Shown here one piece after another: positions 19,930 through 57,679 of a stretch of 64,000 bases of DNA; within the stretch, counting starts at the first letter, position 1, and each line of letters begins with the position of its first letter. Below the pieces are notes generated by a model that was given only the letters and a program-made list of their open reading frames with translations, did no database searches and was not told the DNA's origin. A program made the position numbers and the translations under genes. Source of the DNA: Ehretia macrophylla (Eukaryota > Streptophyta > Magnoliopsida > Boraginales > Ehretiaceae); NCBI GenBank assembly GCA_037974665.1, contig CM075783.1:13101762-13165761 (forward strand), in the 5' to 3' direction.

Positions 19930-20263
19930 TACTTTTGCGACAGAAAGAGAGAAATGAAATAGTGAAGGTTTACTTTGCAATGAAATGGTGACAGAAATTA
20001 ACAAAATAATCTAAAGTTAAAAATTTATATGGTGACGGAGTGGCGATGAAAATTAATAAAATAATTAAAAATAAAAAATTAATATGGTGACGGATTGGTG
20101 ATGATGTTTTATAAAATAATAAAAAATAAAAATTAATTTAGCGACAGACTCGGAAAAAATAAATATTTATTTGTCTTTAATTTGGGGATGAATTTTTAAT
20201 TTTTTGTCCAATGCAGAGACGACGTTACATTTTTTGTCACCTGATGTCTTTTTTCTTGTAGTG
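19930..20263 (+). repeat. CACTA right subterminal region and terminus
   Basis: Multiple imperfect copies of ATGGTGACGGAxTGGTGATG and AAAATAAAAATTAAT spaced about 60 bp lead to the terminus CACTACAAGAAAAAAGAC (reverse complement of 20246-20263). Such repeats are the expected binding sites of TNPA-type proteins. Confidence 0.75.
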
Positions 20264-20697: not shown

Positions 20698-21453
20698 CAA
20701 ACAATAATTGTTAAGGTTCATAGGAAGTGAATAGATTTTAAGCATTTGAAGAAATTGTGTGCACATATTGTATTTTTTTTTTTTTTTTTGCAAATCACAT
20801 ATTGTGTTGTTGTTGGCACATGAGGAAGATAGAGTTTTTTCCCATAATTTTTTTAGTGATGAATTAATTTGTATATTTCACAATGTATGGACACTATTTT
20901 GACATCCATTATCAAATATTTTATTTGTTGCAATATGTAAAATTATTGCAAAAAGGCGAAAAACCATTACATATGACTTTAACTGTCGCTTATGGTACGG
21001 TTGCATATGGTCTCATTGCAACAATGATTCTTTTGTAAATAATATGAATATTGCAATTACACTATGATTTTAAAATAGTTGCGTAAAAGTAATCAAATGA
21101 GCAATTATTAACAAAATGTGATAAAATAACTTTAAAATGTTGCAATTAAATAAAAGTGTTACAAAAAATTTTAGCTTATACAATGATTAAAAAACCATTG
21201 CAATATATAGGTGAGTTTTATTGTAACGGTTTTTTATTTTTTAATTGGAATCTTATAAAAGAGCTAAAATATTATACTGGTCATACGCAAAATTTTTGCT
21301 GAATATGTTATGCCATCTAGCTAAATCCCATAACTTCACAGACCATGAGAGTTGTGAAATCAAGATACGGGTTGTATAATAATCTTCAACATGTATTTTA
21401 ATTTTCCCGTAAACTAGGAATAAGCACTGCAAAGGACACATCTTTTTTCTTTA
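20698..21453. other. AT-rich spacer, no gene seen
   Basis: Contains a T-run near 20770 and repeated short phrases such as TTGCAAxAA and AACCATTGCAA that suggest an old MITE, but ends could not be defined. Confidence 0.4.
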
Positions 21454-21756
21454 GGCAGTGATTGGTATGTGGGAATGAGTTGGGAATGGAATGACATTCT
21501 CAATTCTATTTTAATTCCCATGTTTGGTATGAGGGAATGAACTTGGGAATGTCATTCCTAATGGAATCTCATTCCCACATACATGGGAATAGCCATTCCA
21601 GACTAAATACATGGGAATGGCTCATTCCCATGTATTTGGGAATCAACTTGACTACCATACCCTTTATAAATAATTTGTTTTACAATAATAATAATAATAA
21701 TTAAAAAATATAATATTAATTATTATAAAAATAATAATAATTATTATTATTATGAA

Positions 21757-21803
<47 letters not shown>

Positions 21804-22106
21804 TAAATAATAGTGATTAAATAATAATAATAATAATAATTAAAAATATAATAATATTATTATGAAAATAATAATAATAATTATTATTATAATAATAAAA
21901 AAGATAATAATAATAATAAATAAATAAAATAATAAAATAATAATAAAAACAAAATTAAAAAATAATAATAATAATAATAATTAAAAATATAATAATATTA
22001 TTATAAAAATAATAATTATTATTATTATTATAATAAATAAAAAGATAATAATAATATTAATAAATAAAATAATAAAAACAAAAATAAAAAATAATAATAG
22101 TGATTA

Positions 22107-22139
<33 letters not shown>

Positions 22140-22512
22140 TAAAAATATAATAATATTTTGTTATTAATAATAATTATTATTTTTATTTTTTTTTTTTTTA
22201 TTATTTTTTATTATTGTTGTTGTTGTTGTTATAATTATTTTTATTTATTATTTATTATTATTATTATTTATTATTATTATTTATATTTATATTGTTTACA
22301 ATTATATTTATTTTTATTTTTATTTTTAATACTATAATAATAAAAGGGTAATTATGTCATATTATACAAGTCATTTGTATTACTACTCCTAATTCCTATA
22401 GCATACCAAACATGTCATTCTCATTACCAAGTTTATTCCATTCCCAATTTCATTCCATTCCTTGGTTCATTCCATTCTTGTCCAAATCCATTCCAATATA
22501 TCAATTAGTTCC
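21454..22512. mobile_element. Tourist-like MITE, copy 2 (inverted relative to copy 1)
   Basis: The left terminus GGCAGTGATTGGTAT follows TTA (21451-21453). The right end is diverged (reverse-complemented GGAACTAATTGATAT) and its target duplication has decayed. Subterminal GGAATGA/TCATTCC repeats and the long (AAT)n core match 722-1684 in reverse orientation. It is non-coding. Confidence 0.75.
21677..22340. repeat. (AAT)n/(ATT)n tract in MITE copy 2
   Basis: A-rich AAT repeats up to about 22165, then T-rich ATT repeats, mirroring copy 1. Internal duplications of a block containing TAATAATATTATTATGAAAATAA are visible near 21850 and 21990. Confidence 0.85.
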
Positions 22513-23186
22513 TTTTCGGCCTCCTCCTCTCTTTTATGATCTGGGTGAAGTCAATGAAGATGGCTTTCATTTGTTCTCATGTAGATTGTGATAATTTGAT
22601 GTATATGGAATAATTGAAACAAGGTTTCTTCTCATGAGAAGAGAGAAATGGAAAGAAGAAAAGAGTATACATATCATTACTTTTTCCTCTTTTTAAACAA
22701 ATTTCAACTTATCTTCCCTTCTTTTCCTTCCAAGTTAGTCATATTCTAATTAGAAAATCTCGCAAAATACACAGAAATGAAGACTACAATATGTGATCTA
22801 AGCTGAAGCCTCCTTTGAACGCTTTTCAACTTGCTAGTACGTTTGATATAACGTCTATGTCCTTGTCAATCGATAGTGAAGGAACAAAATCTTGGTACAT
22901 ACCAATACTTATTACAGGTACAATGATACAAATCAAAAGAAAAAACTATGGTGGATTAATAGCGCACAAAATAGGGCCATCTGTTCTATTTGGCAGACTA
23001 CAGATAGATTGATGTAAAGATCCTATTGTGTTTTTTGGTGTTTTTTTTGTTGTTAAATGAAATGATTACTTACTTCGCAAAAAAAAAAAACTCTGGCGGT
23101 GTGTTAGATCATATATGGAAGGGCAAAATGTACAAGTGTATCACGTCATCATGTGATCAAAAGGCTCCAGCTTTACCAGCCATATG

Positions 23187-28984: not shown

Positions 28985-29480
28985 ATAATCTTACTAAATT
29001 ATTCCGTGTCAAGTACAAAGACATACAAATCTTATTATTAGTAAATTACTCTATATATGCATCTTAAGCACAATAACATGATAACTAGTTCACGTTAGAG
29101 TTAAGATTTTGAGTTTACAAGCAAAATTATTTTTATAAAGTTAATAATAATTCAAAATCATAACTAACATAATTAATTTGAATTATTAGTTAAATTATTT
29201 GCTCACTTCCAAGTGGTACATAACACTTTAAGACAAATATAATTTGACTCAAAAAGAAAAAGAAAAGTTCCACATTGGACCAAGCTTAACTATTTCTATG
29301 AAGCTCGTGCAATGGCAAAGAAAATCATAAATAAGTAAAAAAAAAAAAAAAAAACATAGGAGACAAATATGATTTTTAATTTGATTTTCATTAATAATAT
29401 CTACCACTTAAATTTGCTTTTATTTTAACATTATCTACATGTCAATTAATACAGAAAATAAATCAAGACAAATATTTTTA
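28985..29480. repeat. Left copy of flanking modules C, A and B
   Basis: Three blocks recur on the far side of the CACTA block at 43490-44040 in the same orientation: C (28985-29045, CTAAATTATTCC...GACATACAAATCTT), A (29125-29340, GTTAATAATAA...AAGTGGTACATAA...AGAAAAGTTCC...CTATTTCTATGAAGC) and B (29385-29462, TAATATCTACCA...AACATTATCTACATGTCA). Here the order is C-A-B; on the right it is B-A-C. Confidence 0.7.
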
Positions 29481-29491
29481 TAATGTTAATA

Positions 29492-30180
29492 TACTACAAG
29501 AAAAATAGGCTGAGCCGACAGTCAAAATCCGCAGCCTAGCGGTAGCCAAATTGGGACGGGTGACGGCTAGGCGACGGAATTACGTCCGTAGTAAAAAGCC
29601 CCGTAGCCAAATTGATATTCCGTAGCCTAGCCAATTCCGGAAATTAATTTGTATTTATTTTTTATAACTTTCATAGCAAAATAGCCGTAGTCTATCCGTA
29701 GCCAACTAAAATTTTTACTTTTTTAATTAATTATTAATGTCTGTAGCAAATCCGTAGCCATTTCGGTCGTAAATCGACCGTCGTCCACGGCTACGGATTA
29801 ATATCCGTAGAATTTCAATAGCCACTATTTGGTAGCCAATCTGTAGCTCATTCGTAGCCAATTAAAATTTTGATTTTTTTATTAATTATTAACGTCCGTA
29901 GCAAAGCCATAGCCGTATCGGTCATCAATCGGTCGTAGTCCATGGCTACGGATTGGTATGGTAGCCAATCCATAGCCTTTTGTCGACACATTTTCGTAGT
30001 CAATCCGTCGCTAATTAATTATTTAATTTTAAAAAAATAAAAAAAATTATATTAACAGAAAAAAATTAAAAATACAAATTAATATTTACAATAGATTTAT
30101 AATATTTATAAAAAAAACCAATACAAAAATAATATTAATTTACAAAAAAATCTAAAATGATCTACTCTTGTCTTCTAATC
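29492..30180 (+). mobile_element. CACTA left terminus 1 with CCGTAGCC subterminal repeats
   Basis: TACTACAAGAAAAATAGGCTGAG at 29492 is a one-base variant of the CACTACAAGAAAA terminus. It is followed by at least ten copies of CCGTAGCC or GGCTACGG, several paired as palindromes. The first 500 bp closely parallel the second left terminus at 30853. No transposase is encoded nearby. No matching right end or target duplication could be assigned. Confidence 0.65.
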
Positions 30181-30191
30181 ATCTCACTCAC

Positions 30192-30261
30192 ATGGTTTTA
30201 ATGTTTGCAAAGCTTTCCTTTTCTCTTTCTGTACTTTCTCATACTCTTCCAAAGTCATCTC
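30192..30261 (-). pseudogene. Captured exon of an RGG/hyaluronan-mRNA-binding-family gene
   Basis: The minus strand reads EMTLEEYEKV, QKEKRKALQTLKP, the signature of the conserved block in plant HABP4/Stm1-like RGG-box RNA-binding proteins (RGGA type). The 70-nt exon has a good acceptor (ATAATAG before GAGATG) and a canonical donor (GTGAGT right after CCAT), so it was taken from genomic DNA with introns. No other exon of that gene is recognisable; 30262-30848 looks like intron. It lies between the two CACTA left termini. Confidence 0.7.
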
Positions 30262-31559
30262 CTATTATGACATTAACAAATATGCATAAATAACACACAA
30301 ATATTACTTGAAGATATTTAGAGCAGTTTAATTTATTAAATTTCTCATCTACATATACATTGCCAAATTTCTTCTTCCTACACAATCTAACCAGTGAAAT
30401 AGTATTAAAAATACACCAAAAGCTCATTAGTTAGAAGAGAAAACAATTAATAAAAAACTTAGAATATATCAGTCCAAGGCTTCTAGCAAGAAATGTAATT
30501 GAATCTCCCAAGTTATGTTTTGCGTATAGAAGTATCGTTTGTATGAAATTACTTTATTATCTACCCTTCTAATATATAATTTTTCGTATCACCAATGCCA
30601 TTTGCATAAAAGATGATTAAGTTGGATAAAATTGATGCATTCATATAGAAAAGAGAAATCCTACCACAGTTTGAACCATTGTAAGCCAGATCTCTACATT
30701 CCTTAACAATGGTAGTTTCATTGTCACACATATAAGAAAAATGTTCAGTCATGTTCCCTCCACAAAGTATGCATTTAGATACATCTGCACATCATAGCAA
30801 ACTGTATTCAACGCCAATGAATTCATCCAAAGATCTGTTGATTACTAAACAAAACTACAAGAAAAAAAGACTGAGGCAACATCCAAAATCCGTAGCCTAG
30901 CAGTAGCCAAATTGGGACAGGCGACTGCTAGGCTACGGAATCCCGTTCGTAGTAAAAAGCCTCGTAGCCAAATTGATAATTCATAGCCTATTCGTAACCA
31001 ATTTCAGAAATTAATTTGTATTTATTTTTTATAACTTTCGTAGCAAAATAGCCGTAGCTCATCCGTAGCCAACTAAAATTTGGATTTTTTTTTAATTAAT
31101 TATTAACGTCCATAGCAAATCCGTAGCCGTTTCGATCATAAATTGTCCGTAGCCCACGACTACGGATTAGTGTCCGTAAAATATCGATAGCCCCTTTTCC
31201 GTAGTCAATCCATAGCCAACTAAAATTTTTATTTTGTTATTAATTATTAACGTCCGTAACAAAACAATAACCATTTCAATCGTAAATCGACTGTCGCCCA
31301 CGATTACAAATTAATATCCGTAGAAATTCAGTAGCCCCCTATTCCGTAGTCAATTGTCGCCAAATATCCGTAGCCAAAATAAATTTTTATTTTTAAAATA
31401 ATTTATTAATTTTCGTCGCCATTTGTAAATTTAAATTTTTTATTTTAAATTAATTAATTCATAATCGTCGTCATTCTGTAGCTATTTTGTTGCCCAACTT
31501 TCTATAGTTAGTCCGTCGCCAATTAATTATTTAATTTTAAAAAAATAAAAATTGTAAAA

Positions 31560-32618
31560 TTAAAATATAAAATTTTAAAAATTAATATTTACAAAAAAAA
31601 AAAAAAAATAAATGTACAATTATTAGTATATACAAAAAAAAGTATAATATTCAAGAATATTTTAATATGTTTCTTAAATTCAAATTCAAGTTCTACACAT
31701 CATTGTCGATTCTTACATATACCATAACACTCACATAAGGCATGAAACATATAATGTACGCCTTGAACAAGTAATCTAACATAAAAAGGAACTTAGTGCT
31801 AGCTTTTATTTTCCTTATTCTTATATCGAAAGAGAAAATGAAATAAAACATAAACTAAAGCTTTTACAACCCAATTTTCAAGTGAATCTGACACAATCCT
31901 TGTTACCATATTCACCATCACCACGATAAGGAAACTCCTAGAAAAAACAAAATAACCAACATCAAATAAGCAAATTAAAATTAGCTAAAAGATCCATAAA
32001 CCAAAAGTCATAAAAAAAGTCCAATAGAATTTAACTTTACCAATTGTAAAGAATTTAAAAGGAAAAAATAAAAGTGTTTTTGTATGCACTGCAAATATTA
32101 GCTTAAGAGGCCTACAATAAACCCTTATTCCTAGTTCTGATCCAGCAGACCATAATAACTCTTTAAAGTTGCACTCAGTTCAGATTTTTATAGGCCGACA
32201 CTTAAAACATCTTGCTGAGATGATGAGAAGTCGAAATTACTCTTATCAAAGTAGTTTCCGCAGAACTTGCTGAATATAATAGACATCACCAATCTAATTT
32301 TATTTCCCTCTCTGTGATTAGTCCTTTGACTAATTATTTGTACAGTAGTGGAGGTCATAAAGTCCAAATGAAGGTGAATAAATTCTAGAAATACTAGCTG
32401 CAAGCAAAAGACCAAGAAAATGAAACTACTAGTTGCAAGCAAAAGACCAACAAATTTTTCAGGATAAAGCAGGGCAGTTCAACAACCTAGATTGAAAACA
32501 AAGTATCAGTACACAAGCATGCAGCAATAATAGCATCAGGCCATTATGTCCTTCAAAGGAATAAAATGCAGAAAGCCGGTGCAAAGAGAAAAGGGAAAAA
32601 GATTAAATAACATTAAAG

Positions 32619-32660
<42 letters not shown>

Positions 32661-33498
32661 CCATATGTGACTAGAAAGACAAACGTGTATCTGCTATAAA
32701 TAATTAGACGCTCGAAGTTGAAGAGGGATAACAATATAAGACAAGATCATGAAATATCCAATTGATTCTCATTGTGCCATTGGAAAAATTGCAACAGATA
32801 ACTATATGGAACTTGCCACGTTAGAGTAAGATTAACCTTAGAATAGCCATAACACATATTTTAACGCGAGGTGTTGGACTTCCATCCAAAAGAGTGTTTT
32901 CTAGTTTGAGGTCCCCCTATGAAAAATTTCTGAACAACACAAACTACTTATCAATTAATATTCCAGAACAAGTAGAGGAAACTAGAAAAAAGTGTCCAAA
33001 ATTAAACAAATGCGGCATGCGACTTATCAAGCACAGGTTACATGTGATCAAGCAATTAAAAGTTCAACAACTTCATTTGAACCTCCAAACTTTTCTTGCT
33101 TTCTTCATTTTGTTCTTGTGAGTGAACTTCACTAGAACATTATACATTTGAACTCCTCACTCCACTTGTAAAGTAGCGTTTCAAAAATCTTATTCCATCA
33201 AATGAGATATAAGAGACAAAAAAATAGGATATATCTCTCTTTAACATCAGATTAGGATAAAGGATTGGTCATCATCTAGTCACTAAATAGAACATTTTGA
33301 AAGTTTAAAAGTAAATTTTATTGATGTGTGACAAGGGTATGCAACCCGAGAAATGATATGTCAGTAATATGTTAAACAGCAATTCAGGATCTCATACGAA
33401 AAGATGCTTTTACTAGAGTTAACCTCTAGAGGAACTAACAAGACAGGATAAATGAATTATGACGACTGAACTAAGATATAGATAAAATGGTGCCTTAC
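31560..33498. other. Interior of CACTA element 2, mostly unassigned
   Basis: Contains a (TA)n microsatellite (32622-32656) and an exon-like piece (31878-31937). No continuation of the isocitrate dehydrogenase gene (its downstream exons would lie here on the minus strand) was found. Confidence 0.45.
31878..31937 (-). other. Exon-like terminal fragment, unidentified
   Basis: A strong acceptor on the minus strand (TTTTGTTTTTTCTAG) is followed by 19 codons (EFPYRGDGEYGNKDC and four more) and a TGA stop. It looks like the last coding exon of a captured gene, but I do not recognise the protein. Confidence 0.3.
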
Positions 33499-34142
33499 CA
33501 TAACATCAAATTGCTCAGGTTTGGAAACAAGTTGCATGCAGTTGTTGCCCACGATGATCTCATTGTACTTGATACTAGGATACTTACTAGCAACCTCACG
33601 ACATGATTCTAAGAATAAACCATCAGCAAGCTTCAGGATGTTTGCCTTGTGCACAGCAGTGACTGTCTTCCAATTGTTGAGGTATGCATACTCAAAAGGC
33701 ATATTTTGCTATGCGTTCTGAGCAGAACTTTGTCATCACCTAGCAAAATTCTTACATGAGAGACAAAATACTCTCTATAAAGGCTAATGAAGCATTTCAA
33801 CATCACTACTTGAATTCTGAATTCCACTTATTAGTCTATCATTACTCTCTAGTAATTGAAACTGGAATATTATAATTTCTGCAGTAGAATACACGTGATT
33901 TCCAAGAGATTGTTCATTAGAATAATCTTGCTGACTGTATATCACATACCCAAAATATCAAGGTTTATTACAATAATCTCTAGAATTTACTATGATTAGT
34001 GGCAATGGAAAAAGGAAATTGATAATTGATGAGGTTAGAGGATAGAGTAGAATACCTTAAGGCTTTCGACAACTCAAGGAACGACCTCGTGTTCGAGGCC
34101 CGAGTACTTGCCTTCGGTGTTCTCCCTAATGACAACGATTTC
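33499..34142 (-). pseudogene. NAD-isocitrate dehydrogenase regulatory subunit, two captured exons
   Basis: Two exons of the mitochondrial NAD-dependent isocitrate dehydrogenase regulatory subunit (TCA cycle) are present. Exon 34056-34142 encodes EIVVIRENTEG, GLEHEVVP and VVESLK, then donor GTATTC. Exon 33499-33739 starts after acceptor GCTAG with [13 protein letters not shown], continues with [26 protein letters not shown] and YNEIIV, and ends at PEQFDVM with donor GTAAGG. Intron positions and splice sites are preserved, so the DNA was copied from the gene, not from mRNA. It is dead: an in-frame TGA replaces the Gly between VVP and VVES, and one extra T shifts the frame after KYAF. Upstream and downstream exons of the roughly 370-residue protein are absent. 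Confidence 0.9.
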
Positions 34143-34443
34143 CAAGAGATTGTTATTAAGGTGCAGTTGGAAGAAAATGAAGTTAGTAATTTAAATGAAT
34201 GGATCGAGAGATGAACCTTGCATTGATGTCCCTAAGAGTACTTGAAATAGTACAGAGCCAAGAAATAACAATAGGCTTGGAACTTATCTTCATGAAAGGA
34301 AGATGATAAACATATTCAGATGAAATATATTACAATTTTCAATTAGGCAATTACTAAGACTTCTTTGCATGTTTGAGCAACGGTGATGGTAGACAAATTT
34401 TTTAGATGTACCATATCCTAATCCTTCAAAGACAATTATAATA

Positions 34444-34563
34444 TTAAAAAGACTCTATATCTGCGCCACGGTAATATTTGGCTCCATAAGCGTAGTTGTC
34501 ATCCGTTACAAGGTGCATTATTATTGGCCTTATTCTATCCAAATCCTCCTTTATAAATACTAT
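34444..34563 (-). other. Unidentified coding-like segment
   Basis: A minus-strand frame of 39 codons ending in TAA reads IVFIKEDLDRIRPIIMHL, then VTDDNYAYGAKYYRGADIES. The amino-acid composition looks like a real, conserved protein, and a TTAG acceptor-like site lies just upstream. I cannot name it; it does not match the isocitrate dehydrogenase exons next to it. Confidence 0.35.
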
Positions 34564-34571
34564 CAAACTAA

Positions 34572-36405
34572 CACATATGTGCAAGACAAACGACTAGTAG
34601 AGGCAAACTTTGACATCCCAGTGAACCCGAAACTCATTCCAGAAACCAAAAGGTAAAAGGGAAAAAAGTCTTGGTTCCTCATACAATAAGGATCTAAAAA
34701 TGAAACTTCAGAGCTAAAATCTAGTCAGAAATCAGACTGAACATTGCCTACAAACTGAGGATAGCAAATGAAATTGAACTTATATTGTGATAGATAGCTA
34801 GAATTGATCATTATAATTAGGAAACAAAATGCATAGGTATAAGTTTCACAATAAAACAATAGGAGTCTTAAGAGAGAGAGTTCACGATATGTCTCTGTAT
34901 TTGCTATGTATAGTTCCTCAAACGCACTATGGTATATTACTTTTCCTCCACCAATATACCTAACCCCATACTCCAATTCTACAAGTATAGATAGAATACA
35001 GGGGTTTCTCCATTAATGATATGATGAGGTGACACCCTCCAAAGAAATAGCATAAGAAAGCACATAGAATTTGTTAAACCTTTCTTTCACGAAATAAGTA
35101 TATAGAGCAAAAGTCAACCATTTTTTTTATCTCACAAGTCTTCACTAAGGCATAGGTTATATATGCAAAAAAATGGTTTACAAAATGGAGAAACTCTCTA
35201 AGCAGCCATGTTAAGTATAGAACAATGTCAGAAGTTGTTGGATTCAAAGGTGTACAAATTCTTTCCTTTGTTCATTTTATAAATGATATTTATCCATATT
35301 AACTTTCTCATTACCAAGGGAATTTGACCATGTTGGGTCATGAGAATATATAAGCTGCTTAGAACCATAATAATGCATGATAAAAGTAAATAATATGTAA
35401 TCAACACCTATTCTTATATATAAAGTATGCAACATTACATGCCGATACAAATCAAAGCTAAAATGCTTAATCTCGTGGTGACAGTAATAAAGAATCCAAG
35501 TCATGGTGTCAATATATTTAGGCAAAGAATCGAAACAGAGGACAACTTCTATGAATCCAGATAATGCTCAAACACAAATGCTGCCCAAACCAAAGATAAT
35601 TGGAAAAAAATGCCACCTCCAAAAACCCGTGCACTACCCAATTATTCAATCTCAAAAAGGTCTTTCTACGATATGTGAAATAGGTGAATCATATTAAACT
35701 GTCATGCAACAAAAAGGAAGAAAAGGAAAAATGACAAAATTCAAGAAAAGAAAGTAGCTTGCGGTACATTTACAACCACCAGTGAGTACAGGAAGCAATA
35801 TAAAGCAATATAAACATTTCTATATATGTAAACATGGATATCAAGATCTGATGTATCATCTTGTTCTCTCTAGCTTTTATACGAGAGAGTAAAGAGAGAA
35901 GACAGAGTTGATGAACAACTTAAGGGCGAAACGAATCAGAGGGGAAAGACTAAAAAATTAATAGAAAATAGAAGGCAACTAGTCTGAAAGTTTCCTCCGA
36001 CAGATTCTTCTTCCACAGGCAATTCAAGATCTCTAAATTCACCATCCTCCCAAACGTTACAGCACATTCCAACAACAACTACTTTTCTTATCTACTTGTC
36101 CCCATTATTAAACCTGATATGGCCATGAACATGTTTCATACCAAAATTCAAACCTGAACTAAAGGATCCTCAATTTCAGTGTCATAAAACCCACAACTAT
36201 GAAGCCTATCCAAAACTCAATTGACTCTAAAAACATTTATCTCACAACAACACTTAAATTGAAGAATCGTCTAATTCTCAAATTCAACACCATAATGAAT
36301 TAACTACAGCTCAAAACAGGAAACAATCTAGTGAAAATTTATTGATAACCTAAAGACTCAAATCCTAATCAACACCTTTAATATTTAATTCAACAAAACT
36401 ACGCT
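34572..36405. other. Unassigned interior of CACTA element 2
   Basis: Ordinary AT-rich sequence. No protein similarity, RNA gene or repeat boundary was recognised. Confidence 0.4.
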
Positions 36406-36615
36406 TACATGCTGTCACCCACATATTTGTCCAATTTCGGTGGTCTTTCGACGAATAGCCTTCACACTCCAGTTAGATGTCCTCTTGCGAGCAGCAAGGT
36501 ACGCACAAGTAGTGCAACGGCTCTTCTGAAGATGAAAGCTGCGGCGGCCACATCGCACACACAGTGTGTGTGTCTTGTTCCTCCTCTTACCAAAGCTTCA
36601 TGTTCCCTTACCCAT
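36406..36615 (-). pseudogene. RPL37: Ribosomal protein eL37 (60S L37) pseudogene
   Basis: Starting at the minus-strand ATG (36613-36615) the frame reads MGKGT, stop, [28 protein letters not shown], then [19 protein letters not shown]. This is the N-terminal two-thirds of eL37 with its zinc-binding CxxC and CxxC pairs, a large-subunit ribosomal protein of about 94 residues. A TGA replaces the Gly at position 6, and similarity is lost after RRKTT, with a frame change near 36425. Upstream (36616-36750) the minus strand looks like a 5' UTR (CTAGGGTTTCTGCATC, pyrimidine/CCA-rich). The coding part carries no intron in the surviving portion. It lies inside CACTA element 2 in the same orientation as the dehydrogenase exons. 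Confidence 0.9.
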
Positions 36616-36827
36616 GGCTGTGCAGATGCAGAAACCCTAGCCTGTGTGGCTTTTGCCCTGCCGAGACAAATTCCGTGAAAGATGGTAATGGGTGGTAGAG
36701 GAGGAAGGTGGTGGTGGTGGTGGTGGTTGTGGCACTTCAAGTTAAGAGTGTGGCGCTTTTAACTTAAACAAAACCCTAAATAGCCACTTTCAATGTTTTT
36801 ATAAAAGGAACATTTTATTTTACATTT

Positions 36828-36935
36828 CGTCGCCGGCCGACCGGTTCAACCATCCGGTACCTCATCCGCCTGAGACAGAGATGTTCGGCGCTTTTCTATC
36901 CCCGCCGGACGAGGCTCCGGCCGACCGGCTGACAA
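36828..36935. other. GC-rich island, possible captured exon
   Basis: About 108 bp of high GC in an AT-rich setting, bounded by near-copies of CCGGCCGACCGG (36832 and 36917). It differs strikingly from both sides. No protein match is recognised in either direction. Confidence 0.35.
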
Positions 36936-36939
36936 TTTA

Positions 36940-37321
36940 TACAAATAGAAGAAATTTTAAAATTTTTCATATTATGTTTCTTAAAATTTTAAATTTATCT
37001 TTATTATTTAAACTAGTTAATTTAATTTTTATATTTTCTAAAAAATTTAAATTTATTCCTATTATTCAAAATTATTTAATTTAGTCTTTCTTATTTTTTT
37101 AAAAATAATTTAATTCATACCTAAATTAGCTAAATCGATTTTTTTTTAGAAACACTACAGTTTAAATAAAATTTATTTTAAAAACACTAAAACAATTGCG
37201 TGATTTTGAATAATAGAAACAAAAAAAAATGATTTTTTTAAAAAAATATAACGTTAAATTTACTAAATTTGAACAATATAGACAATTAAAATTTTGATAA
37301 AATAATATATACTATTTGTAA
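36940..37321. repeat. Foldback-type repeat remnant
   Basis: AT-rich arms with TTTAGTCTTT/TTTATTCCTATTATT-type motifs, resembling half of the foldback element at 2692-3600. Confidence 0.35.
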
Positions 37322-39247
37322 AATTTAGGCTACTGCTGGGCTTCCTTAGCCCATTCGTAGCTAACGACGACGAATGGGTTATGGATAATTAATAATATGT
37401 ATTCTAACATGTTAATGGGTAGGAATAACATATTAAAATGTGTTAATATCTTCATATTTTTTTTGTTTATGAAGTTTAGACACAATGTGAGAGTTATTCG
37501 ACTCTAAGATTGAACGTTTATTAACATTAAGGCAATGTTAAGTGAGAATATGATAAGTTCAATTTAAACAGCTATTGATTTTCTATGAGATTTCTCTACA
37601 AAAGTATGCACGTTAATGAAATACGGACCAAGTTTATTTTTATTTGAAAAATTTATAACTCATGTGAAGTTTACTACGTTGTAGGTGCAATTAAAATTCC
37701 ATAATTCAAATTAAAAACGATGAACCTCGATTTTTTGTTGAAGTCCGTAGCCTAGCAGTAGCCAATTGAATACTGCTGGGCTACGGAAGAGTTGAAGTCC
37801 GTAGCCTAGCAGTAGCCAATTGTTGACTGTTGGGCTACGGAAGAGTTGAATTCGGTAGCCTAGCAGTAGTTAATTTGCTACTGCTGGGCTCTAGACAACT
37901 AATAATATGTATTGTAACTTGTTAATAGGTAGAAATAACGTATTAAAATGTGTTAATATATTCATATTTTTCTTCTTTATGAAGTTTAGACACAATGTGA
38001 GAGTTTTTCGACTCCTAGATTGAATGTTTATTAACATTAACGCAATGTTAAGTGAGAACATGATAAGTTTGCTTTAAACGATTATTGATTTCCTATGAGA
38101 TTTCTCTATAAAAGTACGCATGTTAATGAAATACAGACCAAGTTTATTTTTATTTGAAAAATTTACAACTCAAGTGAAGTTTACTACGTTGTAGGTGCAA
38201 TCAAAATTCCATAATTCAAATTAAAAACGATGAACCTCAATTTTTTGTTGAAGTCCGTAGCCTAGCAGTAGCCAATTGGCAACTACTGGGCTACGGAAGA
38301 GTTGAATTCCATAGCCTAGCAGTAGCAAATTAGCTATTGCTGGGCTACGGATAACTAATAATATGTATTATAACTTGTTAATAGGTAGGAATAATGTATT
38401 AAAACGTGTTAATATCTTCATATTTTTCTTCTTTATGAAGTTTAGACACAATATAAGAGTTTTTCGACTCATAGATTAAACGTTTATTAACATTAACGCA
38501 ATGTTAAGTGAGAACATGATAAGTTTGCTTTAAACGGTAATTGATTTCTCTATAAAAGTACGCACGTTAATGAAATACGGACCAAATTTATTTTTATTTG
38601 AAAAATTTACAACTCAAGTGAAGTTTACTACATTGTAGTGCAATCAAAATTCCATAATTCAAAATAAAAATGATGAACCTCAATTTTTTGTTGAAGTTCG
38701 TAGCCTAGCAGTAGTCCATTGGCTACTGTTAGGTTACAGAAGAATTGAAGTCCGTAACCTAGCAGTAGCCGATTGGTGATTGCTGGGTTACGAAAGAGTT
38801 GAATTCCGTAGCCCAGCAGTAGCCAATTTGCTACTGTTGGGCTACGGACAACTAATAATATACATTGTAACTTGTTAATAGGTAGGAATAACGTATTAAA
38901 ACGTGTTAATATCATTATATTTTTCTTGTTTATGAAGTTTAGACACAATGTGAGAGTTTTTCTACTCCTAGATTGAACGTTTATTAACATTAACGCAATG
39001 TTAATGAAAACATAATAAGTTCAATTTAACCGGCAATTGATTTCTCTATAAACGTATGCATGTTAATGAAATATGGTCCAAATTTATTTTTATTTGAAAA
39101 TTTTGCAACTTAAGTGAAGTTTATTATGTTGTAGGTGCAATTAAAATTCCATAATTCAAATTAAAAATGATAAACTTTAGTTTTTTGTTGAAGTCCGTAG
39201 TCTAGCAGTAGCCAAGTGGCTACTGTTGGGCTACGGAAGAGTCGAAT
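37322..39247 (+). repeat. Satellite-like array 1 of CACTA subterminal units
   Basis: Four tandem units whose CCGTAGCC anchors fall near 37741, 38251, 38694 and 39191 (spacings about 510, 443 and 497 bp). Each unit has a core of about 390 bp (CTAATAATATG...GTTTAGACACAAT...AACATTAACGCAATGTTAAG...TACGTTGTAGGTGCAATC) and one to three short palindromic modules CCGTAGCCTAGCAGTAGCC-AATTG-GGCTACGG type. The number of palindromic modules accounts for the variable unit length. Confidence 0.85.
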
Positions 39248-39660
39248 GTCGTAGCCCATCCGTAGCTAGGAGCTACGGATAGACTATGGACTTTGTTATT
39301 TTATTTTTCTCTATTTAATTAAAATATCCGTATTTATTTTTTTAATATATTTTTTGAATAATATATATAGTCCGTAGCCAATCCGTAGTTATTTGGCCAC
39401 TGCATGGCTACGGACTTTTTTATAAAAAATTTTGACGAATTAATTAAATAATCTGTAGCTAGTCCGTAGCAAATTGGCCACGGCTAGGCTACGAAATATT
39501 ATTTTTTATTATTTTTATTAATTGAAATTATGGTCCGTAGCCAATCTGTAGCTATGTTTTATCGTCATTTCAACGAGGTCTAAGTAGGCTACGAATGGGC
39601 TACGGAATTTATTGCCCGTATCAAATCTGTAGCCTGACATTAGCCAATTTACTACGGAAA

Positions 39661-39707
39661 AAATCCGTCGCCCAATTCCGTCACCCGAGCGCTGTTTTCT
39701 TGTAGTG
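39661..39707 (+). repeat. CACTA right terminus of element 2
   Basis: Ends GCTGTTTTCTTGTAGTG, complement of CACTACAAGAAAACAGC, preceded by CCGTCGCCCAATTCCGTCAC. Confidence 0.8.
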
Positions 39708-40405
39708 AGCCTAAGAATTAATTAATCTCATCAATGTTGGTGTTATCTTATGCAAAGTGAAGCATGACTCACAACCCACCTCCCATAAATCATTGCTAAT
39801 ATATCTCATGATCCATACATGATATGTACATATGCCTAGTGACTAAATCACATGAATAATATGAATCACTTACAAATTCAAAAAATAAGCCTAGATTCTT
39901 CTTCAATACATGTGCCTAAGAAAGATAAACCATGATTAGGAAAAGCTAAAGAAAATGTGCAACTAAAGAAAAGCTTGAAAACTCAAGGACATAGTACTTA
40001 TAATACCACAACACTCAACTCCATATGAAGAAGGATTATCTTCTCCAACATCATCCTTCTAATTCGATAAAGACTCGAATGAATCATTTTCCACTTTTTC
40101 TTTAAATCCCAACAAAGCGAATCCTAAATCACTTAACAAAATAATTCTATTTAAGCACGTGATTCCATTATTTCAATTCTAAATCAGTATGACTCCATTA
40201 TTTCAATTCTAAATTAGCACGACTCTATTATTTTAACTCTAAATTAGCACATGACTTCATTATTTTCACATATAACAAAAGAATAGTACCACTAACCAAT
40301 TAACATTTCATATTCGCTATATCAGCATTAACATATACATATTGAACTATAAGCGTGGTACATATTCAACTCTAAACTATTTACCTATAGATAGAGATAG
40401 GAATA
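39708..40405. other. Spacer without supported gene
   Basis: Includes a 30-35-bp degenerate repeat (GACTCCATTATTTCAATTCTAAATTAGCAC) three to four times at 40140-40260. No protein-coding or RNA gene is seen. Confidence 0.45.
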
Positions 40406-40676
40406 TGGTGGTGGTGCTCTTGGTAGTAGTGATGGTGCCATTGGTGGTGTTGATGATACCATTGATAGTGGTGATGAGGGTGGTACTCTTGATGATGTCT
40501 TTGGTGGTTCCCTTGGTAGTGATCACGAATAAAAATTAAATAAATAAATGAAAAAATTAATAAACTACAAACTAGTATATTGCACTACCTTTGATGGTGT
40601 TGGTGATGGTGTTGGTGGTTGTTGTTGTTAGTGGTGGTGCCTTTGTTAGTGGTAGTGGTGTCATTGGTGTTGATGG
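40406..40676. repeat. GGT/GAT-rich trinucleotide-like repeat
   Basis: Two blocks (40406-40520, 40589-40676) of imperfect GGTGGTGATGGTG-type repeats. The valine/leucine-rich open frame through it is low complexity and not called as a gene. Confidence 0.7.
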
Positions 40677-40708
40677 TGTCACGCCCTGACTCAACGGAAA
40701 AATGAAAT

Positions 40709-43470
40709 CCATAGCTCATCTGTAGCCAATTGCCACGGTTGGGCTACGGACCACTAATAGTATAAATTCTAACTTGTTAATAGGTAGGAATAACATATTA
40801 AAGCGTGTTTATATCTTTATATTTTTCATGTTTATGAAGTTTAGACACAATATGAGAGTTTTTGAACCCCTAGATTGAACGTTTATTAACATTAACGCAA
40901 TGTTAAGTGAGGACATGATAACTTCGATTTAAACGGCTAATGACTTTGTAGGAGATTTCTCTATTAAAATACGCACGCTAATAAAATACGAACCAAATTT
41001 ATTTTTATTTGGAAAACTAGCATCTCAAGTGAAGTTTGCTACGTTGTAGGTGTAATCAAAATTCCGTATTTCAAATTAAAACTGATAAATCTCATTTTTA
41101 TCTGAAAGTCCGTAGTCCATCTGTAGCCAATTGCCACGGATTGGTTACGGACCACTAATAGTATAAATTCTAATTTGTTAATAGGTAGGAATAACGTATT
41201 AAAGCATGTTTATATATTTATATTTTTAATGTTTATGAAGTTTAAACACAATATGAGAGTTTTTAGACCCCTAGATTGAACGTTTATTAACATTAACACA
41301 ATGTTAAGTGAGGACATGATAACTTCGATTTAAATGGCTAATGACTTTGTAAGAGATTTCTCTATTAAAATACGTACGCTAATAAAATACATACCAAATT
41401 TATTTTTATTTAGAAAACTAGCATCTCAAGTGAAGTTTGCTACGTTGTAGGTGCAATCAAAATTCTGTATTTCAAATTAAAACCGATAAACCTCATTTTT
41501 ATCTGAAAGTCCGTAGCCCATCCGTAGCCAATTGCCACGGATGGGCTACGGACCACTAATAGTATGAATTCTAACTTGTTAATAGGTAGAAACAACGTAT
41601 TAAAACGTGTTTATATCTTTATATTTTTTATATTTATGAAGTTTAGACACAATATGAGAGTTTTTTGACCCCTAGATTGAACGTTTATTAACATTAACGC
41701 AATGTTAAGTGAGGACATGATAACTTCGATTTAAACGGCTAATGACTTTGTAGGAGATTTCTCTATTAAAATACGCACGCTAATAAAATACAGACCAAAT
41801 TTATTTTTATTTGAAAAACTAGCATCTCAAGTGAAGTTTGCTACGTTGTTGGTGCAATCAAAATTCTGTATTTCAAATTAAAACCGATAAACCTCATTTT
41901 TATCTAAAAGTCCAAAGTCCATCCATAGCCAATTGTCATAGATGAGCTACAGACCACTAATAGTATAAATTCTAACTTGTTAATAGATTGAAACAACGTA
42001 TTAAAGCGTGTTTATATCTTTATATTTTTCATGTTTATGAAGTTTAGACACAATATAAGAGTTTTTGGACCTCTAGATTGAACGTTTATTAACATTAACG
42101 CAATGTTAAGTTAGGACATAATAATTTCGATTTAAACGACTAATGACTTCGTAAGAGATTTCTCTATTAAAATACGCACGCTAATAAAATACGGACCAAG
42201 TTTATTTTTATTTGGAAAACTAGCATCTTAAGTGAAGTTTACTACGTTGTAGGTGTAATCAAAATTTCGTAATTCAAATTAAAACCGATAAACCTCATTT
42301 TTATCTGAAAGTCTGTAGCCCATCCGTAATGAAATCTGTAGCCCATCCGTAGCCAATTGCCACAGATAGGCTACGAACCACTAATAGTATGAATTCTAAC
42401 TTGTTAATAGTTAGGAACAACTTATTAAAGCGTGTTTATATCTTTATATTTTTCATGTTTATGAAGTTTAGACACAATATGAGAGTTTTTAGACCCCTAG
42501 ATTGAATGTTTATTAATATTAATGCAATGTTAAGTGAGGACATGATAACTTCGATTTAAACGACTAGTGACTTTGTAGGAGATTTCTTTTTTAAAATACG
42601 CATGCTAATAAAATATGAACCAAGTTTATTTTTATTTGGAAAACTAGCATCTCAAGTGAAGTTTGCTACATTGTAAGTGCAATCAAAATTCTGTATTTCA
42701 AATTAAAACCGATAAACCTCATTTTTATCTAACAGTCCGTAGCCCATCCGTAGCCAATTACCACAGATAGGCTACGAACCACTAATAGTATGAATTATAA
42801 CTTGTTAATAGGTAGGAACAACGTATTAAAGCGTGTTTATATCTTTATATTTTTCATATTTATGAAGTTTAGACACAATATGAGAGTTTTTGGACCCCTA
42901 GATTGAACGTTTATTAATATTAACGCAATGTTAAGTGAGGACATGATAACTTCGATTTAACGGCTAATGACTTTGTAGGAGATTTCTCTATTAAAATATG
43001 CACGCTAATAAAATACGGACCAAGTTTATTTTTATTTGGAAAACTAGCATCTCAAGTGAAGTTTGCTACGTTGTAAGTACAATCAAAATTCCATATTTCA
43101 AATTAAAACCGATAAACCTTATTTTTATCTAAAAGTCCGTAGCCCATTCGTAGCCAATTGTCACGAATGGGCTACGGACCACTAATTGTATGAATTCTAA
43201 CTTGTTAATAGTTAAGAATAACGTATTAAAGCGTGTTTATATCTTTATGTTTTTCATGTTTATGAAGTTTAGACATAATATGAGAGTTTTTGGACCCCTA
43301 AATTGAATGTTTATTAACATTAATGCAATGTTAATTGATGACATGATAATTTCGATTTAAACGACTAATGACTTCGTAGGAAATTTATCTATTAAAATAC
43401 GCACGCTAATAAAATACGGACCAAGTTTATTTATATTTGGAAAACTAGCATCTCAAGTGAAGTTTACCAA
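40709..43470 (+). repeat. Satellite-like array 2 of CACTA-derived 401-bp units
   Basis: Anchor motifs CCGTAGCC (or variants) fall at 40709, 41110, 41511, 41912, 42313, 42737 and 43137: spacings 401, 401, 401, 401, 424 and 400. The last unit breaks off at about 43470. Each unit opens with a palindrome whose best copy (41511-41551) pairs CCGTAGCCCATCCGT with its exact complement around a short loop. The remaining body is homologous to the core of array 1. The 424-bp unit has an internal 23-bp duplication of its palindrome half. No terminus of the CACTACAAG type flanks this array. Confidence 0.9.
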
Positions 43471-43489
43471 GTTTATTTTTATTTTTATT

Positions 43490-44040
43490 TTGATTTTTAG
43501 TAATAATATCTACCATCCAAATTTTATTTTATTTTAACATTATCTACATGTCATTTAACACATAAAAATTACATATGAAAACATATATCTTTATAAAGTT
43601 AATAATAACTCAAATTCAAAACTAAGATGGCTAATTTGAATTATTGGTTAAGTTATTTTGTAACTTCCAAGTGGTACATAATAGATGAAGAAAAATATAA
43701 TTTTTACTCAAAAAGAAAAAGAAAAGTTCCGTGTTGGACCAAACCTAACTATTTCTATGAAGCAATGACAAATAAAATTGTAAATAAGTAAAAAAAATAA
43801 CATATGAATACAAATATAAATATTTAATTTTATTTTTAGTAATATAATTTAATAAATCAAGATTTTAACTGAAAAACGTTTTTAAAAGTCCAATGCAATG
43901 AAATGTTCCACGGTAGACCTCTTTAATTTCAATGCTAATTGTTAGGTTATATTGAATTGGGACCAAAACTGCATGGTCTATTGATGCTAAATTATTCCAT
44001 GTCAATTCAGTGCGAAGACATACAAATCTTCTTATTAAAA
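43490..44040. repeat. Right copy of flanking modules B, A and C
   Basis: Same blocks as at 28985-29480 in the same orientation but in the order B (43497-43560), A (43590-43795), a short second B-like stretch (43825-43862), and C (43985-44040). Confidence 0.7.
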
Positions 44041-49595: not shown

Positions 49596-49797
49596 TGTTA
49601 GGAATACAGATCATGATAAAATAATTTGAATTTGTAAATTGTTACCCTTTGTAACGCAACTACTTCGATTTGATCTTATCTCATGTACATTGCTCTGGCT
49701 ATATCCTTATCTATTGTAACACAACTTCGGCTATAGATATACATGATAATATACACATCTTTGGTAAGTGTTTCCAGAGGTTTTTCCTATTCTTTCA

Positions 49798-52800: not shown

Positions 52801-54191
52801 GGAAGGCCAGACTCGTGGCTGTTGGTTATCTCCAGCGTAGTGGGATTGATTTTCATGACACTTTCAGTCCTGTTATCAAACCCTTTACAGTTCGTATGGT
52901 GCTTGCCCTTGCTGTTTCATTTAATTGAGTCATTCGGCAACTTGACGTCTCCAACGCCTTTCTACATGGCATTCTGGAAGAAGAGGTTTATATGACACAA
53001 CCGAAAGGTTTTAAGGATCCTAAGCATCCACAGTTTGTTTGCAAGCTACACAAGTCTATCTATGGATTAAAGCAAGCTCCTCGAGCTTGGTTTAATCGAC
53101 TCTCTACTACTCTTTTATCACTTGGATTTCACAGTTCACAAGTCGATCCATCATTGTTCACTTATCATCATGCTTCAGTTCATGCATTTTTGTTAGTCTA
53201 TGTGGATAATATTCTTGTTACTTCCAATAATCAGGATTTCATTATATCTCTCATATCTAACCTACAGCTTGATTTTGCTATGAAAGATCTCGGCCATTTG
53301 TCATATTTTTTAGGCATTGAAGCCACATGGAATTCTGCAGGTTTGCATCTTCGGAAAACGAGATATATCATTGATCTCTTGGAACGTGCGAAACTTCTTG
53401 GCATCAAACCTTATCGTGCTCCTTGTGTCTCGGGTTCTAAGCTGTCCAAATTTGATGGAGAACCTCTTTTGGATCCTACTAAGTATTGGCACATTGTAGG
53501 GGCCCTACAATATGTCACTCTCACTCACCCTGACATTGCATATTCTGTGAATCAGCTTTGCCAACACATGCAATCCCCGACTTCAGCTCATTGGACAGCA
53601 GCCAAATGTGTGTTGCGGAACCTAAAGCAAACACTTGATTATGGGCTCTTCTGCAAACCTGGTTCTTTTTCTGTTAATGCCTATTGTGACTCGGATTGGG
53701 CTGGCGACCCTGATGATAGACGATCAATGTGTGGCTATGGTGTTTATGTTGGTCCCAATCTTATCTCTTGGTCGGCCAAGAAACAACCTGTGGTGTCAAA
53801 ATCTATTACCGAGGCCGAATATCGATGCTTAGCTATTGTTACTGCAGAGGTGTATTTGTTGCGCATGCTCTTGTACGAGTTGTAAGTGGCACTTGACTCT
53901 GCTCCTGTCGTTTGGTGTGATAATATCAGTGCTCTTGCTCTTGCCTCTAATTCAATCTTTCATTCTCGTTCTAAACATATTGAGGTGGATTATCACTTTG
54001 TCAGAGAAAAGGTTGCAAACCGTGACATCATTCTGCAGTATGTTCATACCTCTCTTCAACTTGCGGACATTTTTACCAAGGGACACACTGCCGATTGTTT
54101 ATGTTCTTTGCGTAACAAATTATCCGTCACTGATCTTCCTGTTAGTTTGCGGGGGGATGTTAGGAATACAGATCATGATAAAATAATTTGA
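49839..54191 (+). pseudogene. Copia C Gag-Pol polyprotein with six in-frame stops
   Basis: One continuous frame of 1450 codons encodes Gag, the CCHC knuckle CQICKRDGHQALDC (residues 299-312), protease DSG (349), the integrase GAG-pre domain (WHDRLGH, 485; CESCQLGKSK), the integrase core (HSDVW, FQSDNGGEY), RT (LDVSNAFLHG, YGLKQAPRAW) and RNase H (CDSDWAGDPDDRRS, EAEYR, ADIFTKG). There are no frameshifts. Stops at 50277 (TAG), 51342 (TAA), 51420 (TAG), 51702 (TAG), 52926 (TGA) and 53883 (TAA) fall where relatives, from memory, have Gln or Trp. Catalytic positions are also changed: RT YVDD reads YVDN (residue 1124) and the integrase Glu before RKHRHI reads Lys (646). The element therefore encodes no working enzyme. 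The start is the first ATG after the PBS followed by the Ser-rich Gag leader. Confidence 0.95.
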
Positions 54192-54349
54192 ATTTGTAAA
54201 TTGTTATCCTTTGTAACGCAACTACTTCAATTTGATCTTATCTCTTGTAAACTGCTCCTTATCTATTGTAACACAACATCGGCTATATATATACATGATA
54301 ATATACACATCTCTGGTAAGTGTTTCCAGAGGTTTTCCCTATTCTTTCA

Positions 54350-55382: not shown

Positions 55383-57679
55383 TGTCACGCCCCGACCCGA
55401 CCCCGCAAAAGGCCAAGCCTGGACCCGACACACGGACGGAGTCTCCCCTATACCGTGGACGATCCGAAAACCCTACATTCAACATAATACTTGCAAAAAC
55501 CATAATAAACATTTGAAACAAGCCAACTTTCTTTTAGAAAATATACATCTTCTCATTAACAACTTTGCAAACCAAAAATGTCATGCACACTATACAAGTA
55601 TTCGTGCCACTAAACAGTTAAACCATTAGTATGCAATTCTTTACTAGTCATAAGAGTATATCTTTACAACTTCACATTCTTTCAACTTTACAACATAAGA
55701 CCATAGAGGCCTCAAAATGAAACTACATACAAGGCTACAAGCCTTAAAATGAAGCGACAACCAAGCATTAACATATCAAGCATGGCCCGCACAAAAGTCT
55801 GGCAACCAACCACTAGCTAAGCAAAGAAGTGCTATCAAGGAAACACCTCCACTTGCTCCTCCTCCTCAATTACCTCAATAGGGTCCGCTTCAACTACTCT
55901 TGTAAAATATAGTATAGAAAGGAATGAGCAAAAACTATTGCTCAGCGAGGGTTATTGGTCTCAAGGTCGGAGATGAGATGAGAATGCAATGCAAATAGTC
56001 AAGCAATTCATTCAATTATCATATAGAGATACAAACAAAGCCAACAATAAACAAGACAAGCATTAAAACTATAAACACTCATTCAAAGGATACGATTCAC
56101 TTTCCACGAGCAACTTTCAATCACGAATTCGATGACGACGCGCCGGCCCAAACCACCTTATAACTTTAGTTTGGAATACCCCGGAAGTATCCATCAATTC
56201 TACGACCCAAATCTCCCTGGGAGGCAACCCAAGCGAGAAAATGAATAGGACACGGAGCTAGGGTAACCAACACTGGTAACCCGAGGCTACCCAGAGAGGC
56301 CCATCACACCGCCCCTGACTCTATGAATGCAATACAATATACAATGCAACAATCGAGCAATCAAGCAATAAAGCCACACGTGGGAGAATAACAAAGTAGG
56401 TTACTCTCGCACGCAATAGCAACAGTTGATAAGCATTTCAATCAAAATCAACTCTAACAAGCATATCAAGCAATATTAAACATTCTATAGGCATAACATT
56501 AAGATATCAAGCAAAATCACAAATCGACCCCAACTATCAAAATGCTACTATTTCCAAACGAGCCACGAGTTCTGGAAACCGACTTCACCAATCCTCCTAG
56601 GTCACCATAAGACACATCTAAAGATCCCGAAACCCTACTTTACCCTAGAATTCACGCAAAGCCTCGATTTTTTCCTTTGCTCGTTTGAACTACAACTATA
56701 CTAACCAAACACCCAACCAACGCCATAACCACACCAAAAGTGCTTCCATGGCCTCCCGAGACAATGCCATCATGCAAAACGAGAAAATGCTAAACTCGAC
56801 CTAAATGACCCCGACTTTCACCAATGCATTTTTCTCATTTTTTCCATTACACAATCCAAACAAATCATGCATTTAAGCATTCTAGCATATCTAGCATCTT
56901 TTCACATCAACAGAACGCATAACGGAACAACTTCTACGTTTCAAAGATTTACTATTCATATTTTACTATTCAATTGACATTTTAAATTACAATCTCAACA
57001 TTCAACCACAGAAAATGTTAAAAAGCTATAAATACATATTCTACAATTGTCAAGGAACATTCTTTAAGCATTAAAACGATTAAAATAACAAACTACGGAT
57101 AAAACCCAAAAATCATAAAGTTGATATACATGTTATTCAAATGCGCAAATAACGTGCTTCCCTCACCTTGGACACTCCTAATCGCTAAGAAAACCTCGCT
57201 GGATGCCTCGGTAACAACCTTGTGCAAGCTCACACGAAAATTTGAAGTTTGAAGATTGAAAATATTTTTTTTTCTTTCCTCTTGGTTTCGGCCAGTAGGT
57301 TTTCTGTTTTGTGCTTTTTTTATTTTTATTTTGCTATGTTATAACTTATAAAAGATGACAAGCCTTTGGTCAAATGGTCAAGCTTGGTCAACTAACTTAA
57401 AAATTGGTCAAATTGGCCTATTTTTATGCATTTTAAAGCTATAACAACCATCACCAAATTAATTCTAGCTAACAACCACTAAAACACTAAAATTAAAACA
57501 CTAAATACTAGTTTTCACTATTTACTGAGGACTAGAAAACACTCTCTAGCTATCGCTCCCGAAATGCAATGTACTTTGCGACAACAAAGAAGTAATAATT
57601 TGATTTCAAAGAATTTAAGAAAATATAATTTTCAAAATAATAAATAGGAAAATTTCACATTCCGGACTCGGGTATTACA
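55383..57679 (-). repeat. 3' LTR of gypsy D
   Basis: On the minus strand it starts TGTAATACCCGAGTCCGG and ends GGGTCGGGGCGTGACA (2297 bp). It contains the GGGAGACTCCGTCCG box (55433-55447), a GGTCGTAGAATTGATGG box (56194-56210) and CTCTGGGTAGCCTCGGG (56282-56298), all shared with the LARD LTRs. Confidence 0.9.

Follow-up and report, generated by a model that had tools for sequence, protein, structure and literature searches.

Tandem arrays of spacer and palindrome in two related, probably nested CACTA elements of Ehretia macrophylla

A 64,000-nucleotide stretch of the Ehretia macrophylla genome (GCA_037974665.1, contig CM075783.1, forward strand 13,101,762–13,165,761; hereafter the window, whose own numbering is used throughout) contains two related CACTA (En/Spm) elements, A and B, that carry gene fragments and have no recognizable transposase, together with two tandem arrays built from a common unit. 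Our preferred reading, to which we assign a probability of roughly 65%, is that B (30853–39707) lies inside A (29492–30852 and 39708 to ~43480), that the second array is the right arm of A, and that the right end of A has been lost. Both arrays look like decaying parts of transposons and not like newborn satellite DNA.

Results

The features of the block are given below; a half-site is an exact CCGTAGC or GCTACGG.

28994–29491, plus strand: left flank of the block, homologous to the right flank
29492–30091, plus strand: left terminus and subterminal region of A, TACTACAAGAAAA, matching 12 of 13 bases of CACTACAAGAAAA; seven half-sites
30853–31594, plus strand: left terminus and subterminal region of B, AACTACAAGAAAA, matching 12 of 13 bases of CACTACAAGAAAA; seven half-sites
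37321–39240, plus strand: array 1, four core units (37390–37732, 37900–38242, 38356–38685 and 38853–39182) with tandem 54-bp palindromes at the junctions
39241–39707, plus strand: right subterminal region and terminus of B, CACTACAAGAAAA exact on the minus strand at 39695–39707; seven half-sites
39708–40690, plus strand: stretch between the right end of B and array 2, with no half-site and no identified gene; interior of A if B is nested
40691–43465, plus strand: array 2, seven 401-bp units with cores starting at 40755, 41156, 41557, 41958, 42382, 42783 and 43183, the last unit truncated; most likely the right arm of A if B is nested
43481–44037, plus strand: right flank of the block, the left-flank repeat again but in permuted order

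The terminal inverted repeats of CACTA elements begin with CACTA and have the 13-bp consensus CACTACAAGAAAA. A search of both strands of the whole window with this 13-mer, allowing at most two mismatches, returned six sites, three on the plus strand (29492, 30853 and 55241) and three on the minus strand (20251–20263 and 39695–39707, both exact, and 50471). The array locus holds two left ends (29492 and 30853) against one right end (39707), where the first-pass annotation, made by a model from the letters of this DNA, had only one left end. The right end is exact, and both left ends retain 12 of 13 bases with the first base changed in each, which indicates that neither A nor B is young. The two left ends are alike over 440–610 bp, well past the terminal repeat.

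Both arrays are present where the first-pass annotation had placed them. Tandem Repeats Finder (TRF) reported array 2 at 40708–43465 (period 401, 6.8 copies, score 4434) and part of array 1 at 38248–39240 (period 497, 2.0 copies, score 1557), and a separate repeat search set 11 copies in register, spaced by 510, 456, 497, 1902, 401, 401, 401, 424, 401 and 400 bp. When the cores were cut at conserved borders and aligned, the shared core proved to be about 340 bp long and not ~390 bp as had been proposed: 343, 343, 330 and 330 bp in array 1, and 341 bp in five units of array 2, with a sixth of 340 bp and a truncated last unit of 283 bp. The junctions of array 1 comprise three, two and three tandem 54-bp palindromes, and this variation in number accounts for its irregular unit length; one such palindrome and a variant follow unit 4. 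The nine copies of the 54-bp palindrome are pairwise 67–93% identical. Each junction of array 2 has a single 45-bp palindrome, and one of them is 23 bp longer owing to an extra partial copy; the last unit is cut at 43465. The palindrome CCGTAGCC...GGCTACGG is common to both arrays, as the annotation had stated. It had also suggested aligning all eleven units pairwise; in this alignment, units of array 1 average 90.4% identity to one another, units of array 2 average 92.9%, and units of different arrays average 84.6%. The units separate by array with support of 1.0 in one tree and in every one of 100 bootstraps, which places the amplification or homogenization of each array after the split of A and B.

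Assigning array 1 to B and array 2 to A predicts that the left ends and the arrays have diverged equally. Over 29492–29931 and 30853–31289, the left ends are 84.8% identical, with 10.3% transitions and 4.9% transversions (gap columns excluded), and the arrays are 84.6% identical, with 9.5% transitions and 5.9% transversions. The sequences around the block point in the same direction, in that homologous flanks bracket 29492 to ~43480 with array 2 included, and the left copy ends at 29491, immediately beside the terminus of A. Three pairs of segments match: 29128–29403 with 43586–43851 (80%), 29372–29491 with 43481–43604 (83%), and 28994–29040 with 43987–44037 (84%). Nothing else in the window matches the left flank as well as the 80% and 83% pairs do; the third pair is equalled or bettered in E-value by several AT-rich stretches, of 57–66% identity among the matches listed. 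Array 2 stops within a unit, and the search for CACTA termini revealed no right end farther to the right, the sole right-type match there, at 50471, having two mismatches. The annotation was correct that array 2 lies outside the visible right terminus at 39707, but the second left terminus at 29492 alters the meaning of "outside": array 2 is more likely the right arm of an outer CACTA element with a lost right end than DNA that has left the transposon. From these observations we infer both the nesting and the loss of the right end of A.

Several observations weigh against this arrangement. The agreement between left-end and array divergence depends on the stretch chosen, because longer gapped alignments of the left ends are less alike (81.4% over 447 columns, and 75.2% over 626 columns under looser scoring), and the comparison covers two elements at a single locus. 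No motif links array 2 specifically to the left end of A. No 3-bp target site duplication was found for B, whose flanks read CAA and AGC with no base alike in register; such a total mismatch is unlikely for a simple insertion, even of elements that are not young, and weakens the case for 30853–39707 as a clean single insertion, although its ends remain of CACTA type. Finally, the permuted flanks provide no clean empty site. A simple empty-site interpretation was dropped, since the right flank begins ~105 bp upstream of the insertion point with its pieces out of order. The permutation suggests a local tandem repeat as the target and a deletion at the right, and our guess is that insertion into such a repeat was followed by the deletion. 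Pairing 29492 with 39707 as the ends of one element was likewise set aside: the 3-bp flanks (ATA and AGC) share one base and form no target duplication, and the end at 30853 would be left unexplained.

The palindrome motif is a subterminal repeat of the family to which A and B belong, because half-sites concentrate in the ends and the arrays far above the level of shuffled sequence. In a count over ten regions that jointly cover the window, exact half-sites numbered 7 in the left end of A, 7 in the left end of B, 10 in array 1, 7 in the right end of B and 9 in array 2, with none in 30092–30852, 31595–37320 or 39708–40690 and one in each outer flank of the block. When the five rich regions were shuffled, they held 0.05–0.08 half-sites on average and never more than 1. 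A motif reiterated at both ends, here seven times in each of the three ends, is as found in the CACTA superfamily. Many of the palindromes have decayed; with 16-bp arms and up to three mismatches allowed, four of the seven junctions in array 2 still qualify. Seven hand-picked palindromes were folded as single-stranded DNA with 200 shuffles each. Five reach −17 to −22.6 kcal/mol, a stability matched by none of the shuffles; the degenerate palindrome of the A left end reaches −12.3 kcal/mol (equalled by 4 of 200), and that at 39250–39294 folds partially at −10 kcal/mol (equalled by 0 of 200). The arm variant TAGCAGTAGC occurs in exact form once in the left end of B and six times in array 1, and is absent from the left end of A and from array 2; the left end of A carries the variant TAGCGGTAGC once. 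This distribution counts in favor of nesting, as does the confinement of half-sites to the ends and arrays but for the two in the outer flanks.

The first-pass annotation held that the arrays had grown from the palindromes, which is half right. Palindromes in the left ends stand without the 340-bp core, whose best match there (E = 7.5e-04) is to AT-rich sequence and is not convincing; growth from palindromes alone is therefore rejected, and the amplified unit is the core together with the palindrome. An exact 31-base pattern from the core had no match in a collection of viral contigs, where a plant repeat would hardly be looked for. By analogy with other CACTA elements, the palindromes are candidate binding sites for a TNPA-type protein that would bring the ends together: binding of subterminal repeats by such a protein has been reported for En/Spm and proposed for the soybean element Tgmt* (PMC2613891). 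The locus itself encodes no TNPA-type protein.

The substitutions within the arrays, scored against the majority base, bear on the idea of a satellite being born, and they speak against it. Array 2 contains 94 substitutions, 72 of which are C>T or G>A and hence of the deamination type; array 1 contains 72, with 37 of that type. Such changes affect 72 of 715 cells at C/G sites in array 2 and 37 of 360 in array 1, in CG, CHG and CHH contexts, a pattern for which dense methylation may be the cause. At A/T sites, 10 of 1613 cells have changed in array 2 and 28 of 984 in array 1. Variable sites are mostly private to one unit, with 46 singleton versus 19 shared in array 2 and 47 versus 12 in array 1. 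In array 2, the identity of two units does not depend on how far apart they lie (Mantel r = 0.21, p = 0.20), and array 1 has a weak distance effect (Mantel r = 0.66, p = 0.045; four units only). Given mostly singleton variants and no distance effect, array 2 looks like units that were nearly identical at one time and have decayed one by one, and there is no sign of present growth. Array 1, with its weak distance effect and its higher rate of A/T-site change, looks older. Across 37390–39182, array 1 exceeds array 2 in A/T-site change and not in C>T rate, as if the arrays had been silenced for similar lengths of time and amplified at different times.

All of the gene pieces found in A and B are on the minus strand, and the two elements carry different ones, a further point in favor of nesting.

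30187–30261, minus strand: host exon fragment in A, HABP4_PAI-RBP1 family, 25 amino acids (PF04774, E = 5.6e-05, 24.3 bits against a cut-off of 21.8)
33460–33708, minus strand: NAD-isocitrate dehydrogenase gene fragment in B (PF00180, E = 1.1e-15; PDB IDH[NAD] subunit gamma, E = 1.8e-22)
34077–34190, minus strand: probable second exon piece of the isocitrate dehydrogenase gene in B (PF00180, E = 0.0034, 17.1 bits, under the cut-off of 27)
36418–36597, minus strand: ribosomal protein eL37 gene fragment in B (PF01907, E = 3.9e-21; PDB plant eL37, E = 2.2e-28)

Host gene fragments thus lie between CACTA ends, as in Pack-CACTA elements, with isocitrate dehydrogenase and eL37 in B and the HABP4-family piece in A. 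No transposase family was detected at E 0.01 among 59 interior stop-to-stop open reading frames (ORFs) of at least 45 amino acids (30031–30852, 31600–37320 and 39708–40710), a scan that left out the arrays and, a few short ones excepted, ORFs below 45 amino acids. A non-autonomous CACTA element does not require a Tnp2-type transposase. Besides PF01907 and PF00180, the scan gave just one marginal match, to PF25184 (E = 0.0085), which was taken as chance, as were the PF18912 and PF00130 matches of the eL37 piece, which fall under their cut-offs.

Discussion

The main rival to nesting is a single rearranged CACTA element, in which faulty gap repair or recombination duplicated the left end (29492 and 30853) and array 2 is a right-subterminal copy displaced past 39707. 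It would suit the presence of just one right terminus and the lack of a 3-bp target duplication around B as a separate insertion. However, the 0.8 kb between the left ends holds a host exon fragment, which does not fit a plain tandem duplication; the arrays fall into two distinct clades in 100 of 100 bootstraps, neither nested in the other; and the homologous flanks enclose array 2 as well. We consider this explanation unlikely.

Two further explanations make array 2 or its unit something other than the arm of a second element. One CACTA element could end at 39707 and have seeded array 2 from its subterminal region as a young satellite growing outside it, the view of the first-pass annotation, which draws on the position of array 2 beyond the visible terminus and on its more regular and more homogeneous units (92.9%). 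A second left end exists, though, the flanks enclose the array, and array 2 did not arise from inside array 1; its changes are of the decay type and mostly private, with no distance effect, and it has only seven units, the last of them truncated. We regard seeding of this kind as quite improbable. The arrays might instead descend from a host satellite that existed beforehand and was captured by CACTA elements, as has been proposed for the 171-bp repeat of Chenopodium quinoa (PMC8978399). A 340-bp core with no convincing match in the left ends could indeed be foreign, but the junctions of the units contain the element's own subterminal palindrome and array 1 has the variant found in the left end of B, which makes capture very improbable here.

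Returning to two nested elements, a course of events can be proposed. The right subterminal region in the A/B family would be a tandem array of a ~340-bp spacer and a palindrome, and the near-identical, directly repeated palindromes of 45–54 bp that flank the spacer could serve as substrates for unequal exchange or slippage, by which spacer and palindrome would be amplified together. Amplification, or the last homogenization, would have taken place in each element after A and B diverged, with both arrays later decaying by C>T change. A deletion may have removed the right terminus of A and brought its cut-off last unit up against flanking DNA near 43465–43490. The variable number of palindromes in array 1, the 23-bp partial duplicate in array 2, and a 12-bp gap common to units 3 and 4 of array 1, though overall units 2 and 3 are most alike, could be traces of exchange.

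A more speculative and, in our estimate, doubtful extension is that the right end serves as a binding platform of variable length, whose modules of core and palindrome multiply separately in each lineage, with the arm type kept in step at both ends, so that the element tunes the binding of its own transposase. The suggestion of arm types in step comes from TAGCAGTAGC, confined to the left end of B and array 1. Were it true, an element losing its terminus, as A seems to have done, would leave the module behind as a potential satellite seed.

Tandem repeats linked to CACTA elements are already known from Arabidopsis, Chenopodium, wheat and barley, and gene capture by CACTA elements is known too. 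In Arabidopsis thaliana, the satellites Ensat1 and Ensat2 derive from Atenspm2, and Ensat1, according to a review, includes 499 bp of it (PMC10794571, PMC6947457). The Ehretia monomers likewise include a CACTA-type stretch, but they still reside within CACTA ends, and the likeness is one of description, no sequences having been compared. CACTA elements of C. quinoa have a 32.5-copy, 171-bp array near the 3′ end, for which the authors favor capture of an existing satellite, and Chenopodium CACTA elements also hold captured gene fragments (PMC8978399). The present locus resembles these in having a tandem array near one CACTA end together with captured gene fragments; it differs in unit length and in a unit that includes the element's own palindrome. 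The Chenopodium satellite CficCl-61-40 arose from the Jozin CACTA element, the source being a ~40-bp piece of the transposase domain (PMC7320549); a CACTA element supplied the monomers in both cases, but the subterminal region was the source in Ehretia. Wheat and barley satellites, among them TaeSat04-337, TaeSat07-343 and HvuSat01-338, are 95–100% covered by EnSpm/CACTA sequence (PMC10827815, PMC11447152). Their monomers, too, are a few hundred base pairs of CACTA sequence, likened to ours by description only, whereas they are established satellites mapped by fluorescence in situ hybridization (FISH).

The soybean element Tgmt* has imperfect 13-bp CACTA ends and palindrome-forming subterminal repeats, 12 at the right and 2 at the left (PMC2613891), and Tgm-Express1, also of soybean, has imperfect 13-bp CACTA ends and five host gene fragments (PMC1947982). 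A and B share with them the imperfect ends, with Tgmt* the subterminal palindromes, and with Tgm-Express1 the gene capture. The soybean motif is different, and the available text on these elements mentions no array of a ~340-bp core plus palindrome.

As a story of satellite origin, the Ehretia locus would be one more CACTA example beside several published ones. Its value lies in side-by-side relatives, each with its own array, which allow the divergence of ends and arrays to be compared at one locus and make a readable case of how tandem repeats originate and persist inside DNA transposons. It also counsels caution: where an array lies just beyond the visible end of a transposon, it may be part of a truncated element farther out.

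Other features of the window

A further exact right-type CACTA end, TTTTCTTGTAGTG at 20251–20263, belongs to a segment (19995–20263) that has a 55-bp tandem repeat of its own and whose subterminal motif differs, being TGGTGACGGA-like; no left end resembling its terminal sequence was found in the window. Immediately before array 2, at 40677–40686, stands TGTCACGCCC, perhaps a trace of another insertion; the same ten bases open the probable Gypsy long terminal repeat (LTR) at 55383.

Direct repeats of ~2.95 kb at 11547–14492 and 16314–19266 are 96.3% identical, start with TGTGATAACC, end with TTACA, and are probably the LTRs of one retrotransposon. Those at 55383–56765 and 62618–64000, which are 96.9% identical, start with TGTCACGCCC and surround minus-strand Gypsy-type ORFs, are probably LTRs as well, the second reaching the end of the window. 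Short direct repeats (TGTTAGGAAT...TATTCTTTCA; 49596–49797 and 54158–54349, 90.6% identical) surround a Copia-type element. In protein searches, the top-scoring match of a Copia ORF was 46% identical over the full query, one listed match reaching 80% over 35% of it, and the best full-length matches of a Gypsy ORF were 67% identical; together with those of eL37, the retroelement matches point to a flowering plant. AT-rich inverted repeats of ~1 kb at 720–1687 and 21451–22514, with 74.6% identity and ~20 kb between them, may mark the two ends of a large element or represent a single repeat present twice.

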